Shown: positions 582-7,341 of the stretch, in pieces
Layout: every line of letters begins with the position of its first letter
Position numbering within the stretch: the stretch's first letter is position 1
NCBI GenBank assembly: GCA_016934535.1
Contig: JAFGSQ010000065.1
Coordinates: 1-7,341 of the forward strand
DNA: 7,341 nucleotides
Source of the DNA: a candidate division WOR-3 bacterium
Lineage (GTDB): Bacteria; SDB-A
Reading direction: 5' to 3'
Made by a program: the position numbers and the translations under genes
The notes under the pieces: generated by a model
Seen by the model: the letters and a program-made list of their open reading frames with translations, nothing else
What the model was told of the DNA's origin: nothing
The model's database searches: none

Positions 582-625
582 AAAACAAAAAAAGGGCAAG
601 AGTGATCTTGCCCTTTTTTTGTTTT
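582..625. terminator. Bidirectional intrinsic terminator between convergent genes
   Basis: A perfect inverted repeat has 19-base arms at 582-600 and 607-625 around the 6-base loop AGTGAT. The core GGGCAAG/CTTGCCC is flanked by runs of A on the left and T on the right, so the RNA from either strand forms a GC-core hairpin followed by a U run. It lies 11 bases after the stop of the plus-strand frame (570) and 8 bases after the stop of the minus-strand lipoprotein gene (634), the position expected for a terminator shared by convergent genes. Confidence 0.92.
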
Positions 626-633
626 TGTGATGT

Positions 634-1428
634 CTAGAAAGCTCCGCGGAAACCCTGGACGGGCTGCCACCAGTAACGGAAATAAAGGTCTTTTGTGTTA
701 AGTGAAGTTACAAGAATTCTGACATAATGACCATTTGATAGTTCTACCCAGAAATAATTCGTTGTATTAAGAGGAATCTGGGTTATAGCTGCCCATGCAG
801 GAGGATTTAAACCAGTCGGAGGTGCGAAATGTGTATATGTGCCGTTTACATCACTTGCCAGGTATGTTGTTTTTGTGCCAGTTGAAGGAGAAGTTTGACC
901 CCCAACAAAATATAAATTGTTTGAAGTGTTATTATCGTACAGGAATATATCGATTAATGATGCGTTGTATGGTGGATTTCCCGTCGCTTGTGAAGACATC
1001 AAATAACCGTTACCTGAATTGTCCCAGTAAAAACATGAAAGATAAGAACTGTGAGTCCATTCACCTATGTGGAAACCCGATTGTTCGACCGGATTTGTTG
1101 TAACAGATGAAGACCAAGTGCTCGTATCATTGTCTACAAAAGTTCTCACTCTGTATGATCCGAGTTCTGTCGGATTGTTGTGCGTATAACTTGTGCCTGT
1201 CACAACGGCATAACCTTTTGTTCCGGGGTATTCGATCTGGTATGAATCAGCATTTGTGACTGCATACCAAGTGATTACTAATCCCATCCCATCCATTGTC
1301 GCATCGATGGCAACATTAGTAGGTGCTGCAGCAGTTCCACCGCCTGGATTTGTCGGACTGTCGTCTTTGGTACAGCCAAAAACTGCTAACGAAGCTACAG
1401 CAATGACCAACAATAATATTTTCTTCAT
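634..1428 (-). CDS. Lipoprotein with fibronectin-III-like domain and putative surface-export signal
   Basis: The 264-residue protein starts at ATG (1426-1428) with a strong GGAGG site at 1433-1437 and ends in TAG. The N-terminus is a lipoprotein signal (MKK, hydrophobic 4-18) with a lipobox ending FGC, so lipidation is predicted at Cys19. The next residues are T-K-D-D-S, matching the C-x-K-(D/E)2 lipoprotein export signal known in Bacteroidetes for surface-exposed lipoproteins. A Gly/Ala/Pro linker (24-36) leads to a fibronectin-III-like beta domain (about 36-112) with VITWYAVTNADSYQIEY and SYRVRTFVD strands. The C-terminal half (113-264) is rich in Tyr, Trp and Asn, is probably all-beta, and was not recognised. 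It ends in YFRYWWQPVQGF. It is the last gene of the minus-strand operon, 11 bases after the upstream lipoprotein gene, and terminates at the shared hairpin. The function is unknown; binding or adhesion is only a guess from the domain type. Confidence 0.85.
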   Translation of the reverse strand: MKKILLLVIAVASLAVFGCTKDDSPTNPGGGTAAAPTNVAIDATMDGMGLVITWYAVTNADSYQIEYPGTKGYAVVTGTSYTHNNPTELGSYRVRTFVDNDTSTWSSSVTTNPVEQSGFHIGEWTHSSYLSCFYWDNSGNGYLMSSQATGNPPYNASLIDIFLYDNNTSNNLYFVGGQTSPSTGTKTTYLASDVNGTYTHFAPPTGLNPPAWAAITQIPLNTTNYFWVELSNGHYVRILVTSLNTKDLYFRYWWQPVQGFRGAF

Positions 1429-1439: not shown

Positions 1440-1796
1440 TTATTTTATTGGAACAATAGGAATTGTAGGGTGTGTTTGCAAAGGCGGTTTGTCAGGATTA
1501 TGCAATCCGTATATAACGCTGTCGAGAGAGTCATTGGCTCTTTTTAACACGACATTTTCTTCGCGTAATCTTAGTATATCATCCTGAATTTCTGACAATC
1601 CGACACTGTCAATTGTTATATTGCTGTATTTTGCCAGTTCTGTTTCCAACTCGGAAATCTTTGCCTCATATTGGATTGATTTATCCTGATATATCTTGAG
1701 TTCTTGACGAAGCTGTTCCAATTGTGCATTGTTTGAACAACCAGCAAATAATACTGCAATAAGTAAAATCGCAAGAATAAATGGTCCTTGTTTCAT
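1440..1796 (-). CDS. Lpp-like coiled-coil lipoprotein, paralogue of its upstream neighbour
   Basis: The 118-residue protein has a lipoprotein signal (hydrophobic 6-19, lipobox LFAGC), so Cys20 should be lipidated and the mature chain would be 99 residues. The start of the mature chain, CSNNAQLEQL, resembles E. coli Lpp (CSSNAKIDQL). Residues 26-57 give a clean heptad pattern (L26, L29, L33, Y36, S40, Y43, I47, L50, L54, Y57). After a short break, residues 67-98 give another (L67, I70, I74, L77, N81, L84, N88, L91, I95, L98). A Pro-rich linker (101-107) leads to the end HPTIPIVPIK with a C-terminal lysine. Residues 67-98 align without gaps to 69-100 of the neighbouring lipoprotein, including EIQ and NDSL-x2-VI-x2-L, so the two are tandem paralogues. 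The ATG at 1796 has only a weak upstream AAGG, so translation may depend on the upstream gene, which ends 14 bases before. By analogy with Lpp it may link the outer membrane to peptidoglycan; this is inference. Confidence 0.8.
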   Translation of the reverse strand: MKQGPFILAILLIAVLFAGCSNNAQLEQLRQELKIYQDKSIQYEAKISELETELAKYSNITIDSVGLSEIQDDILRLREENVVLKRANDSLDSVIYGLHNPDKPPLQTHPTIPIVPIK

Positions 1797-1810
1797 TATG
1801 CTTCAAGCCT

Positions 1811-2188
1811 TTACTTTATTGGAGTAATCGGTATCGTCGGATGACCACCGCCGCCTGATGAGCCGCCGCCAGAAGTCGAACCTGCTTTGAGTTTTTCAAT
1901 GACTTGTATCAGTGAATCATTTGTAGTTTTTAAAGTAGCAATTTCTTCATTCAAAGCGTCCATCTCTTCTTGGATTTCTTCAATATCCATATCGCCGAAA
2001 TCTTCGATCTGGGTTTCGAGAGTCGCGACTTTATCAGTGAGAGTCGCATTTTCTTTAGTCAGGTCTTCAATCTTTGTCTGAGCTGTTTTGAGATCATCGA
2101 GAATTTTCTGGCTGTTTCCCATCATCGAACAACCAACTGCAAAAACAAGAACCAGACACATCACGGTTGCTAATGTTAGCTTTTTCAT
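1811..2188 (-). CDS. Lpp-like coiled-coil lipoprotein, first gene of the lipoprotein operon
   Basis: The 125-residue protein has a lipoprotein signal with a lipobox-like AVGC, so Cys20 should be lipidated and the mature chain would be 106 residues. The body is almost entirely coiled coil. Positions 29, 33, 36, 40, 43, 47, 50, 54, 57, 61 and 64 are I/L/A/N/V/F in strict 4-3 spacing. After a GDMD break a second segment (69, 72, 76, 79, 83, 86, 90, 93, 97, 100) continues with I/M/L/N. Asn47 and Asn90 occupy core positions, as is common in oligomeric coiled coils. A Gly/Ser linker (103-115) leads to HPTIPITPIK, ending in lysine. The start is set by AAGGAGG at 2193-2199, 4 bases before ATG. It heads a three-gene operon with its own promoter at 2214-2242. 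Lipid anchor, rod-like helix and C-terminal lysine match Braun's lipoprotein, although it is longer than the 58-residue mature Lpp of E. coli. A spacer or scaffold lipoprotein not bound to peptidoglycan is the alternative. Confidence 0.83.
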   Translation of the reverse strand: MKKLTLATVMCLVLVFAVGCSMMGNSQKILDDLKTAQTKIEDLTKENATLTDKVATLETQIEDFGDMDIEEIQEEMDALNEEIATLKTTNDSLIQVIEKLKAGSTSGGGSSGGGGHPTIPITPIK

Positions 2189-2483: not shown

Positions 2484-3899
2484 ATGAAAAGACTCAGACC
2501 AATCGTTTTTGCAATGCTTATTTTTATGGACATCCAGGCACTGTCGTTTGTTCACGGGCCGAGAATTTCTTCCGTATTCAGGGATTCCGTTTTTATTACA
2601 GCCGAGACAGACGATTCATGTTTTCTTCAGGTGATGTATGGCGAGGATAGCGGGATTATGTCAGAGACCGCGTATTGCAGTTCTCCGGACACATTCCATT
2701 CCGTCGTTCTCAGGCATTTCAACGCGACGAGGTCCTGGAAATACTCCGTAAAAATCCAAAATGCTCAAGACACAGTCCAGACACCCGAAAGGGTGTTCAG
2801 AATGCCAGCCGCACCAGGCGAAAGTTTTACATTCGCAGTTTTGGGGGACGCCCACTGCACGGCGGGATCAGGAGGAATACCACCGGAGTTTACGGCCAAC
2901 ATAGCCAATATCTGCGCCTACGACCCCGATTTCGTCCTTTTTTTAGGCGACGGAATTCACAACTCATACTATCAATCCGAGGTCAGACAGCAGTGGGACA
3001 ATTTTAAAATTGCCACCGACACGATTGCATTCAACAGGCCGGTATTCATGGTTATAGGCAATCATGACGTCAACACCTGGTATCACAACTTCAACGGAGG
3101 AGACATTCTTGCCGACGAATTCGAAATGCCCCGTAATGCGCCCATGCCTGAATTTTATGATGAACTCGTCTACTTTTTCGGTTGGGGAGACGTCACTTTT
3201 TACATTCTCGATTCCGATTATTACGACAATCCGGAGATAATTGACGTAGTCCAGAGAAACTGGCTCGTTCAAAATATTTCGACCGGCCAATCGCGCTTTA
3301 AAATCACCGCCCATCACGAACACGCATGGTCAACAGCGGGCGACCTCTACGGTTTTTTGGGCGAGCATCCCGAAGAACGAGACGCTTACTGGAAAGTTTT
3401 GAGAGACAACGGAGTCATACTCGACATGGCCGGTCACATACATCTTTATAACCGTGACTTTTTCGGCAGACCTCTTCCGGACACGATAACCTGCGTTAAT
3501 CAGCTCATTTCAGGAGGCGCGGGGGGAAGTATCGTGGGAGGATATGGCGGAGATTACCACCATTTCTGCCTTATCGAAGTAAACGGCAATACGCTGAGTA
3601 TCACGGCCATAGACAACACTGGCGCTATCAGGGACAATTTTTCTCTGACAGATGTCGAAGAGACTGCTGAACCGGTTTTCGACCGCTGTCCTGTAGAGTA
3701 CATGAGTAACGGTTTCAGGTATTACGCCGAGATTCCCGGAGTACTTCGCGTCTTTGACCAAACCGGCAGAGTGCTTTTTGAAAAAAGAGTTCAACCGGAT
3801 CAACAAGCCGAGTTTTTGACGGACATATCCGGAGTATATTTTTTAATGTTTGACTCTGGCGAAGAAGTTTACTCAAATAAATTCACTGTGATGAGGTAA
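2484..3899 (+). CDS. Secreted calcineurin-like (purple-acid-phosphatase-type) metallophosphoesterase with type IX sorting domain
   Basis: The 471-residue protein is a predicted metal-dependent phosphoesterase secreted by type IX secretion. It starts with a basic then hydrophobic signal peptide (about 1-20). Residues about 21-107 form a beta domain like the fibronectin-III-like N-domain of purple acid phosphatases. The catalytic domain (about 115-380) holds the full two-metal set: GDAH (121-124), GDGIHN (155-160), GNHD (192-195), HHEH (277-280) and GHIH (317-320). The tail (about 405-471) has the type IX sorting pattern with RVFDQTGRVLFEK, DISGVYFLMF and a final SNKFTVMR. All expected metal ligands are present, so activity is likely, but the substrate (phosphate monoester or diester) cannot be read from the sequence. 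It is the first gene of a plus-strand operon, 4 bases before the channel gene. It has no Shine-Dalgarno site, and the -10 box at 2472-2477 would start the mRNA at the ATG. The next ATGs downstream would remove the signal peptide, which supports this start. Confidence 0.9.
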   Translation: MKRLRPIVFAMLIFMDIQALSFVHGPRISSVFRDSVFITAETDDSCFLQVMYGEDSGIMSETAYCSSPDTFHSVVLRHFNATRSWKYSVKIQNAQDTVQTPERVFRMPAAPGESFTFAVLGDAHCTAGSGGIPPEFTANIANICAYDPDFVLFLGDGIHNSYYQSEVRQQWDNFKIATDTIAFNRPVFMVIGNHDVNTWYHNFNGGDILADEFEMPRNAPMPEFYDELVYFFGWGDVTFYILDSDYYDNPEIIDVVQRNWLVQNISTGQSRFKITAHHEHAWSTAGDLYGFLGEHPEERDAYWKVLRDNGVILDMAGHIHLYNRDFFGRPLPDTITCVNQLISGGAGGSIVGGYGGDYHHFCLIEVNGNTLSITAIDNTGAIRDNFSLTDVEETAEPVFDRCPVEYMSNGFRYYAEIPGVLRVFDQTGRVLFEKRVQPDQQAEFLTDISGVYFLMFDSGEEVYSNKFTVMR

Positions 3900-3903
3900 T
3901 TTA

Positions 3904-5424
3904 ATGCTTTTTTCTTTTTTGACTCTGAAAATCGCCGCCACTTTTATCGGATGGTTCGTCCTGGAACTTCTGATGGCTAAAACTTTCAAGCACAGGTTTC
4001 TCTTAAAGAACAAGTTTTTTATTCACGCGCTCGTTTTTTTTCTTTTTCTATGGTTGCTCAGTCTTGTACTTTCGGACCTGATATTTCCAGCCAGAATCGG
4101 CATAATTCTGGGCAATCTTTTCTCAGGAGCCGTACTTGTAATCGGCTCATATCTTTTGGCGGACCTTGCGGATTTCTTTTTGTCGGGACAGACTCACTAC
4201 AAAGGACAATCCGCCAGAATAATTCCCGGCGTCCTCAGGAACATAATAAAATTCGTCCTGGTGGTCATTTTCGTATTACTTATACTTCATTTCCACTTCA
4301 AGATGGAACTGAAGGGTATTTCAGTTACGTCCGCGGTCCTGGCCGGTGTCCTCGGTTTTGCACTTCAGGAAACTCTCGGAAATCTTCTTTCCGGTATAGC
4401 CTTGAACATGGAATCGCCGTTCAAGCACGGAGACTGGATAAAAGTCGGTGAAGAAGAGGGATGGGTCATTGATATCACATGGAGATCGACTACCATACAC
4501 ACAAGGCAGGACGACCTGATAACAATACCGAATTCGAAAGTGAGTTCTGAAAAAATAATCAATTTCTCGAGACCTCAGAGAAACAAGGCTGTCGAGATCA
4601 ATGTCGGAGTGTCGTACGAAAATTCACCCGAAAAAGTAAAAAATATAATCATTCAGTGCGCCCTCGAATCCAAGCTCGCTAAAAAAGAGCCCCGGCCTCT
4701 GTGCTGGCTGACAAATTACGGGGATTCTTCTATAAATTACAAGCTTAAGTTCTGGATAAAAGATTACGCAGAGATACATCAGGCCCAGGACGAGGTCATG
4801 ACTAAAATCTGGTATTCATTCAAGAGGAACAGCATTGATATACCTTTCCCGATAAGACAGATAAAGAATTACGAGTCCCATGCCGCTTCGGTCGAAATAA
4901 GGATACAGGAAACAGTCGAAACTCTCAAAAGAATAGCTATTTTCGAGCCGCTGGAATCGGAGGACATAATGCTTCTGGCGAAGAATTCTCCGAGAGTGTC
5001 CTACGGCCAGGGAGACATAATCATAAGGCAGGAAGACGAAGGCGATTCAATGTTCATAATCACCAAAGGCGAGGTGGTTGTTGAGAAGAAAGGGGAGGAC
5101 GGATCTCATAAATTCGTCGCTAAACTCGGACCTCTCGACTTTGTAGGGGAGATGTCACTCTTGACCGGCGAAAGGAGGAGCGCGACCGTAAAGGCGTTCA
5201 CTGAAGTCGAGGTGATCCTTATAAATAAAAACGCTTTCAAACAGATACTTGTCGCGAATCCCAAGATAGCTTTTTCTCTAAGTGAAAAACTTCTGGGAAG
5301 AAAAAAAGAACTTGAAAGGCTCGGCGATCCGAAGTATTCTGAGCTCGACAGCGTTCATGACGAAAAAGAAAAAACTTCGATTCTCATGAAAATTCAGGGA
5401 TTTTTCGGTATAACCAGGAAGTGA
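3904..5424 (+). CDS. MscS-family channel fused to a cyclic-nucleotide-binding domain
   Basis: The 506-residue inner-membrane protein has hydrophobic segments at about 5-23, 38-59, 63-93 and 112-131, followed by the MscS pore helix and beta domain (about 140-213). The pore helix shows the typical Ala/Gly/Leu packing (VLAGVLGFALQETLGNLL, 145-162), then SPFKHGDWIKV (171-181) and ITIPNSKV (206-213). An MscS C-terminal alpha/beta domain runs to about 325. Residues 343-463 are a cyclic-nucleotide-binding domain. Its phosphate-binding cassette FVGEMSLLTGERRSATV (413-429) keeps the Glu (E416) and Arg (R425) that contact ribose and phosphate. A charged tail ends the protein. This matches the bacterial cyclic-nucleotide-gated (bCNG) branch of the MscS superfamily, in which ligand rather than tension is thought to matter most. 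The start uses a GAGG (3893-3896) inside the end of the upstream gene, so translation is probably coupled. Which nucleotide binds is not visible; cAMP or cGMP are the usual ligands. Confidence 0.93.
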   Translation: MLFSFLTLKIAATFIGWFVLELLMAKTFKHRFLLKNKFFIHALVFFLFLWLLSLVLSDLIFPARIGIILGNLFSGAVLVIGSYLLADLADFFLSGQTHYKGQSARIIPGVLRNIIKFVLVVIFVLLILHFHFKMELKGISVTSAVLAGVLGFALQETLGNLLSGIALNMESPFKHGDWIKVGEEEGWVIDITWRSTTIHTRQDDLITIPNSKVSSEKIINFSRPQRNKAVEINVGVSYENSPEKVKNIIIQCALESKLAKKEPRPLCWLTNYGDSSINYKLKFWIKDYAEIHQAQDEVMTKIWYSFKRNSIDIPFPIRQIKNYESHAASVEIRIQETVETLKRIAIFEPLESEDIMLLAKNSPRVSYGQGDIIIRQEDEGDSMFIITKGEVVVEKKGEDGSHKFVAKLGPLDFVGEMSLLTGERRSATVKAFTEVEVILINKNAFKQILVANPKIAFSLSEKLLGRKKELERLGDPKYSELDSVHDEKEKTSILMKIQGFFGITRK

Positions 5425-5428
5425 AGGT

Positions 5429-6193
5429 ATGTTGTTCAGAAAAAGCAGAAAATCAAAGGAAAATTTCAGTTCGACCAGGGAATGGATAGAATCAATAGCA
5501 GTGGCGGTATATTTCGTTTTGATAGTCAGGCTGGTTTTGATACAGTCTTTCAGAATTCCGACTCCGAGCATGGTAAATACGCTTCTGGTAGGCGATTTTC
5601 TTTTCGTCGAAAGACTCTCCCTCGGCCCCAGGATTGCTTATCACAGAGGAAATGAAGAGCTCTGGAATCTTCATCTGTTCAAGTTCGCCGATCCCAAAAG
5701 GGGAGACATAATCGCTTTCAGGTATCCGATAGACGGCAGGGATTTTGTGAAAAGGTGTATAGGATTGCCCGGCGACACGGTGAGGATAATTGATAAAAAA
5801 GTGTACATTAACGGAAAAAGCCTCGAAGAAGACTACACAGTGTTTTCAGACGACAGAATTTTTCCCTCCCTTTTTCAGACACAGCTTGGCGCATCTTTGA
5901 CCATCGAAGAATACCAGAAACTTTGGGAAGAAAGAAAATTTCACGAAGGGGCTATTTTCCCTTACATAAGAGACAATTTCGGACCGATCGTCGTTCCCCG
6001 GGGACAATACCTGATGTTGGGCGACAACAGGGACAATTCGGACGACTCGAGAGCGTGGGGTCCGGTCCCGGCAAAAGAACTCAGGGGCAAACCCCTGATA
6101 TTGTATTTCTCTTTCAACATGAAGGAAAACGAAAAAGTGATCGCGCCGTGGAAATGGGTGAAATGGACACGAATAGGAAGATTGTTAATCTAA
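5429..6193 (+). CDS. lepB: Signal peptidase I
   Basis: The 254-residue serine/lysine protease (peptidase family S26) cleaves Sec and Tat signal peptides at the outer face of the inner membrane. A basic N-terminus leads to one membrane segment (about 21-40). The nucleophile Ser47 lies in RIPTPSM (42-48) and the general-base Lys108 in DFVKRCIGLPGD (105-116). The family signature GDNRDNSDDSRAWGPV (198-213) follows. An extra stretch of about 50 residues (137-186) separates the Lys box from the final boxes and probably forms the variable cap region. Gram-negative LepB of E. coli has two membrane segments and 324 residues; this one has a single segment and is intermediate in length. The gene starts 4 bases after the channel gene, with AGGA at 5416-5419, and is the last of the operon. 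It would be expected to process proteins such as the phosphoesterase encoded two genes upstream. Confidence 0.96.
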   Translation: MLFRKSRKSKENFSSTREWIESIAVAVYFVLIVRLVLIQSFRIPTPSMVNTLLVGDFLFVERLSLGPRIAYHRGNEELWNLHLFKFADPKRGDIIAFRYPIDGRDFVKRCIGLPGDTVRIIDKKVYINGKSLEEDYTVFSDDRIFPSLFQTQLGASLTIEEYQKLWEERKFHEGAIFPYIRDNFGPIVVPRGQYLMLGDNRDNSDDSRAWGPVPAKELRGKPLILYFSFNMKENEKVIAPWKWVKWTRIGRLLI

Positions 6194-6272: not shown

Positions 6273-6346
6273 TGGGGTGTCGTCCAATGGCAGGACTCGT
6301 GACTCTGGATCACGCTATTGGGGTTCAAATCCCTGCACCCCAGCCA
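6273..6346 (+). tRNA. tRNA-Gln (anticodon CTG), CCA encoded
   Basis: The 74-base cloverleaf has acceptor TGGGGTG (6273-6279) paired with CACCCCA (6336-6342). The discriminator is G6343 and CCA is encoded at 6344-6346. The anticodon stem CGTGA/TCACG (6298-6302/6310-6314) holds loop CTCTGGA with anticodon CTG at 6305-6307. The T arm is GGGGT-TCAAAT-CCCT-like and ends before the acceptor. The weak first pair U1-A72 and discriminator G are typical of glutamine tRNAs. It reads CAG. The next gene begins 11 bases after the CCA. Confidence 0.96.
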
Positions 6347-7271: not shown

Positions 7272-7341
7272 CGCGGGATGGAGCAGTGGTAGCTCGCTGG
7301 GCTCATAACCCAGAGGCCGAGGGTTCAAATCCCTCTCCCGC
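7272..7341 (+). tRNA. Initiator tRNA-fMet (anticodon CAT), cut by the window edge
   Basis: The 70 visible bases reach position 71 of the acceptor. C1 is followed by GCGGGA, which pairs with TCCCGC at 7336-7341; positions 72, 73 and any CCA lie beyond the window. The anticodon stem is CTGGG/CCCAG with loop CTCATAA (anticodon CAT). It carries the three consecutive G-C pairs next to the loop that mark initiator tRNAs. The sequence parallels E. coli tRNA-fMet closely (CGCGGG start, GAGCAG..GGTAGCTCG D arm). An initiator normally has A72 opposite C1, which cannot be seen here. Confidence 0.95.

Follow-up and report, generated by a model that had tools for sequence, protein, structure and literature searches.

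Tandem coiled-coil lipoproteins with a shared C-terminal tail as candidates for outer-membrane attachment in a candidate division WOR-3 bacterium

How the outer membrane is attached to the wall in diderm bacteria that lack Lpp is, to our knowledge, a largely open question outside the Proteobacteria. It is raised by a locus of a candidate division WOR-3 bacterium encoding two adjacent coiled-coil lipoproteins with almost the same C-terminal end: do these proteins tether the outer membrane in the manner of Braun's lipoprotein, and what might the shared end bind? The window, i.e. the whole stretch of 7,341 nucleotides that was analysed, spans the entire contig 65 of a genome of 2.23 Mb in 76 contigs (G000). 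It was compared with three further genomes of the same phylum (G001 and G002 from the same genus, G003 from the same family; n = 4 with G000), with 17 genomes of a second phylum, that of G154, and with G128, the single representative of a third lineage related to the window genome at the domain level. The relevant features of the window are as follows.

1811 to 2188, minus strand: lipoprotein A, 125 aa, with signal and Cys20, coil 1 (about residues 23-65), the break FGDMD, coil 2 (about 69-101), a Gly/Ser linker and the tail HPTIPITPIK
1814 to 1843, minus strand: tail codons of A (HPTIPITPIK), from pattern search and codon comparison
1440 to 1796, minus strand: lipoprotein B, 118 aa, a paralogue of A, with Cys20, two coils, a Pro-rich linker and the tail HPTIPIVPIK
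1443 to 1472, minus strand: tail codons of B (HPTIPIVPIK), from pattern search and codon comparison
634 to 1428, minus strand: gene 3, a lipoprotein of 264 aa with lipobox VFGC, an FN3 domain (about residues 35-110) followed by a C-terminal domain; its place next to the coil lipoprotein is conserved
634 to 1074, minus strand: C-terminal domain of gene 3, the type of which changes with the tail type of A
582 to 625, minus strand: intrinsic terminator-like hairpin directly after gene 3, by its position the probable end of the transcription unit (one of two such hairpins found, against 1.4 expected in shuffles)

The three genes are separated by only 14 bases (A to B) and 11 bases (B to gene 3). 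A previous sequence-only reading had described A and B as adjacent lipoproteins with a lipidated Cys20, two heptad segments, a flexible linker and a shared tail, and open reading frames, lipoboxes, periodicity and AlphaFold2 models all bear this description out, while the third operon member, the conserved partner gene 3, had been missed. Both proteins carry N-terminal signals with a lipobox Cys20 (FAVGC, LFAGC), and the cysteine is retained in all six aligned sequences. With respect to the coils, at most one of 5000 shuffles was as periodic as the actual sequence for both helices of A and for the first helix of B; the second helix of B is moderately periodic (153 of 5000 shuffles as good), so that the word "strict", as applied previously to the heptads, holds for three of the four helices and is slightly overstated for the fourth. 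In the AlphaFold2 models, which were computed for single chains only and with six sequences, A forms helices at residues 2-65, signal included, and 69-104, and B at 23-58 and 64-99, in both cases with a short break between the helices and a tail of low confidence; at a pTM of about 0.3 for either protein, the arrangement of the helices is not given by these models. A Foldseek search of the PDB with the model of A returned no match. Matches of the coils to unrelated Pfam and NCBIfam families (DivIC, phage scaffold and others) were dismissed as compositional.

Lpp of E. coli (NF011925, NF040598) resembles the window proteins in its lipidated cysteine, its heptad coil and its C-terminal lysine, and B aligns with it from the signal through the first coil (one pairwise BLASTP: E = 1e-8, 55 aa aligned at 29% identity). 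The mature start is thus Lpp-like in B, as had been claimed; that of A, CSMMGNSQKILDDL, shows no such likeness by eye. In contrast to Lpp, however, A and B have two coils with a break, a Gly/Ser or Pro linker and the tail HPTIPIxPIK, and two homologues of A end in D or E and some of the counterparts in other lineages in N, M or Q. Both proteins also score below the curated Lpp cut-offs (B: 25.2 vs. 108 bits for NF011925 and 20.8 vs. 43 for NF040598; A: 21.3 vs. 43 for NF040598), and Pfam LPP was not among the matches listed for B. Of the features that define the family, the lipobox cysteine at position +1 and the heptad coil following it are present, whereas a conserved C-terminal lysine is not. 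Because the curated cut-offs were missed and the terminal lysine is not a conserved feature, A and B were not filed as Lpp; "works like Lpp" is nevertheless still the best functional comparison for them.

The genes for LppA and LppB of Salmonella are arranged in tandem. As in that genus, two lipoprotein paralogues of the same kind occur here in one genome; however, those of Salmonella are Braun lipoproteins and members of the Lpp family (PMC5103298), while neither A nor B matches the Lpp models, their two linkers are of different kinds, and the next gene encodes an FN3 lipoprotein. Attachment through a terminal lysine is also known for a protein other than Lpp: in OutB of D. dadantii the single C-terminal lysine is necessary and sufficient for linkage to peptidoglycan and the Lpp box around it is tolerant, which makes ends in PIK plausible acceptors, although OutB, unlike the location proposed for A and B, sits in the inner membrane and has a basic tail, VRTTKK (PMC12274547). 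The outer-membrane proteins LimB27, BpbA and BpbB of C. burnetii are likewise linked to peptidoglycan by L,D-transpeptidases, but at other sites (Lys21, N-terminal Gly/Ala; PMC12729407).

With respect to the shared end, the last ten residues of A and B agree at nine positions, in contrast to an identity of 33% in the coils of the two paralogues (column permutation of the A/B alignment: p = 0.0005 for these ten columns, p = 0.02 for a window of ten columns anywhere). As synonymous differences separate six of the nine matching codons, recent gene conversion was rejected as the source of the equal tails, and the tail is, judging from these codons, maintained at the protein level. This agrees with the former proposal that the end is probably under selection while the linkers have diverged, and the conservation of more than the lysine, i.e. 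of HPTIP, suggests specific binding. Among the four genomes of the window phylum, motifs of the HPTIPIxPIK type occur in no proteins other than A and B of G000 and G003; the search that had been recommended thus recovers the motif from a second genus, but it is confined to these two genomes, and a genome-wide sorting signal was therefore discarded. On the other sequence stretches examined no similar tail was found on any convincing gene. As to the lysine itself, it is the last residue in 12.7% of 259 open reading frames from 400 kb of G000, and none of eight lipoprotein-like frames found there by a crude ORF finder ends in it, a number too small to serve as a base rate.

Orthologues of A occur in all four genomes of the window phylum, whereas B was found, apart from the window genome, only in G003, where A ends in HPTIPVHTIK and B in HPTIPVVPIK. 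In G001 and G002 only A is present; its coil has about 60% identity, its Gly/Ser linker is retained, and since gene 3 starts 11-18 bases after A there is no room for a remnant of B. Their A proteins end in HPDLGPQIIIE and LGPNVIID, respectively, so that the terminal residue of A is K in G000 and G003 (as it is for B), E in G001 and D in G002. Homologues that keep the coil but lose the terminal lysine had been named as an argument against attachment to peptidoglycan, and they exist within the window genus itself; the lysine is thus not universal. Nor can two tethers of different length per operon be regarded as a general arrangement, as G001, G002 and the second phylum have one. Two tethers might set two spacings, as had been suggested; Lpp length by itself does not fix the width of the periplasm (PMC8824477).

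Gene 3 varies along with these differences. Its FN3 assignment rests on matches to fibronectin-type chains (E from 4e-9 to 1e-3), and Pfam fn3 matches 6 of 13 members of the family; the C-terminal domain of the window protein has no Pfam match of its own, and an HmuY match in one of 13 relatives is a weak lead. In this C-terminal domain G000 and G003 are 64% and G001 and G002 66% identical, as opposed to 39-41% between the two types (41% for G000 and G001), while the FN3 half, which in the operon lies between the tail and the C-terminal domain, stays genus-like (76% identity between G000 and G001, 51% between G000 and G003). The domain types are paired with tail types, namely HPTIP..IK in G000 and G003 and LGPxxII[DE] in G001 and G002. 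A sister relationship of G001 and G002 is rejected by 3728 columns of other proteins (AU test, p = 4e-9), which excludes simple inheritance of their type from a common ancestor of the two, but it is the only grouping supported by the C-terminal domain (log-likelihood difference 72.5). Three traits accordingly change together in the window phylum, in conflict with the species tree: the type of the tail, whether B is present, and which type of C-terminal domain the partner carries. No topology is rejected by the FN3 half on its own, so the locus may also have moved between lineages as a unit.

Outside the window phylum, the gene-3 profile found homologues in all 17 genomes of the second phylum, and wherever upstream sequence exists a coil lipoprotein lies directly upstream of the FN3 lipoprotein (4, 14 and 1 genomes in the three lineages). 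The upstream lipoproteins of the second phylum measure about 97-120 aa; besides the coiled coil they have a linker of low complexity and, in general, a basic tail. They share only 24-31% identity among themselves, and they are linked to A by gene position and architecture, with no claim of sequence homology. The tally of their tails comprises 14 complete or partial genes (that of G388 is incomplete at the 5' end; G398, with a broken frame, was left out), of which ten end in Lys, three, all from one genus, in Asn and one in Met, the penultimate residue being Ile or Val in 12 of the 14. Compared with a lysine content of 36% in the preceding eight residues, the terminal lysine is in excess (binomial p = 0.007, kinship ignored). 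In G128 the pair consists of a coil lipoprotein ending in IKQ (L144:1177-1488) and an FN3 lipoprotein (L144:1492-2313). These pairs from three lineages are candidates for the attachment of the outer membrane to the wall; literature searches on WOR-3 envelopes and on HmuY/FN3 lipoproteins yielded nothing on a pair of coil and FN3 lipoproteins.

A covalent attachment would call for an L,D-transpeptidase, and a check of the genome for YkuD enzymes, suggested at the outset, was positive: proteins with the SHGC[IV]R motif were found by profile search in all four genomes of the window phylum, G000 included. Two SHGC families are common to all four, one membrane-anchored (about 250 aa) and one of about 300 aa without a lipobox, while a third, lipobox-bearing family was found only in the Lys-tailed genomes (L023 and L024 in G000, L044 in G003) and thereby follows, in four genomes, the same pattern as tail type, B and the gene-3 domain. 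The profile search found no lipoprotein-type YkuD in G001 and G002, where a copy may have been missed, as the G000 members score near the threshold (three candidates at first look, all reported). In the second phylum YkuD was detected in 8 of 17 genomes, and all six of these with a known tail end in Lys; there was no match in the three Asn-ending genomes (one genus, 92-98% complete), nor was YkuD detected in the Lys-tailed genomes G154 (97% complete), G396 (89%), and G387 and G391 (both incomplete). The association of Lys with YkuD has a Fisher p of 0.06-0.08, with kinship ignored.

Taken together, we tentatively favour, at somewhat less than an even chance, an Lpp-like outer-membrane tether, the Lys-ending members of which are covalently bound to peptidoglycan. 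The acylated cysteine would anchor the N-terminus of A and B in the outer membrane, the two coiled-coil helices would serve as a spacer, probably in an oligomer, and the disordered linker would present the short conserved tail as the working end. In both window proteins, as in the other Lys-ending members, a YkuD L,D-transpeptidase would most likely link the side chain of the terminal lysine to the peptidoglycan stem. This may be the enzyme of lipoprotein type that was found, within the window phylum, only in the Lys-tailed genomes, and the coil lipoprotein may act together with the adjacent lipoprotein of FN3 and C-terminal domain. Outer-membrane location, co-transcription, oligomerisation, covalent attachment and contact between tail and partner are all steps that we infer. 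Covalent attachment is favoured because D and E ends co-occur with the lack of a lipoprotein YkuD and N ends with the lack of any detected YkuD, and Lys-ending, Lpp-box-like tails recur in comparable operons of the second phylum. It is opposed by the two Lys-ended lineages without detected YkuD and by G001 and G002, where coil and linker are retained but the ends are QIIIE and NVIID despite two SHGC-type YkuD enzymes in the same genome; the conservation of HPTIP besides the lysine and the scores below the Lpp cut-offs also count against it. The original proposal of an outer-membrane tether with a new C-terminal motif is thus supported in part, by the outer-membrane type of coil lipoprotein, the conserved end, the YkuD enzymes and the Lys tails of the second phylum, but a universal lysine is not.

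The main rival, which we regard as rather unlikely, holds that the tail docks non-covalently on the C-terminal domain of the gene-3 product, the two proteins forming a complex at the outer membrane, and that the terminal lysine is incidental. It is favoured because tail and partner domain change together while the FN3 half stays genus-like, with the C-terminal domain supporting only the grouping that the other sampled proteins reject; it also fits the adjacency of the pair in three lineages and the tolerance for D, E and N ends. However, the sample of four genomes contains what amounts to a single change of type, and this coincides with the lack of both B and the lipoprotein YkuD, so that the causal one among the linked traits cannot be told; the whole locus may have moved together, and the tails of the second phylum are basic. 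The latter (e.g., KKKSRRIIK, PKKKVKRRIK), along with Lys tails in genomes without detected YkuD, would rather suit a non-covalent binding of peptidoglycan or another polyanion with the charged end as a mere electrostatic contact, a reading which is decidedly improbable in view of the modest charge of HPTIPITPIK and the acidic ends in G001 and G002. That the shared tail is a functionless relic of duplication would agree with the paralogy of A and B, but is very improbable considering the near-identity of the tails in spite of synonymous codon changes and their conservation between two genera whose coils and linkers have diverged. Covalent tether and docking are not mutually exclusive. An improbable, further-reaching variant of the tether is one outside the Proteobacteria in which the tail, the domain of the FN3 partner, the paralogue and a lipoprotein L,D-transpeptidase dedicated to the system exist as two allelic types that switch jointly, the tail being a specificity code and not a generic Lpp box. 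The natural variation of the terminal residue among K, D, E and N makes the covalent hypothesis testable.

Several further observations concern the envelope genes around these loci. A second small coiled-coil lipoprotein of 86 aa ending in ERGL or ERGM (L003, L016, L017, L019; G000:C18:429-665 and neighbours) directly precedes a secreted protein that also has a coiled coil and whose end is LysM-like. With 89-98% identity within the genus and 71-73% between genera, both are far more conserved than A, and they are candidates for tethering peptidoglycan non-covalently. G393 and G394 have, after gene 3, a gene for a 422-aa lipoprotein in which FN3 units are repeated and the C-terminal domain is of the same kind (L103:2382-3650, L101:2373-3641); this points to domain expansion. 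G002 and G003 encode, downstream of gene 3, an apparently beta-rich secreted protein of about 344 aa with a ComEA-like helix-hairpin-helix domain at its end (L026:7085-8122, L025:1699-2730; HHH_3, E = 3e-20 and 8e-19), which is not present at the corresponding place in the window. There, a reading frame at 112-570 converges on gene 3; it covers the C-terminal portion of a protein and matches the type IX secretion sorting domain TIGR04183 (34.6 bits), and only short 3' pieces match at that place in G001 and G002.

The remainder of the window encodes a calcineurin-like phosphoesterase that is secreted and carries a weak type IX sorting tail (2484-3899; 18.5 bits, cut-off 23), and an MscS-type mechanosensitive channel fused to a cyclic-nucleotide-binding domain (3904-5424), behind which, in an order kept in G002, lies a signal peptidase I gene (5429-6193). 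The tRNA genes are those for tRNA-Leu (gag) at 2351-2436, tRNA-Gln (ctg) at 6273-6346 and, at the contig end, tRNA-Met (cat) at 7272-7341.
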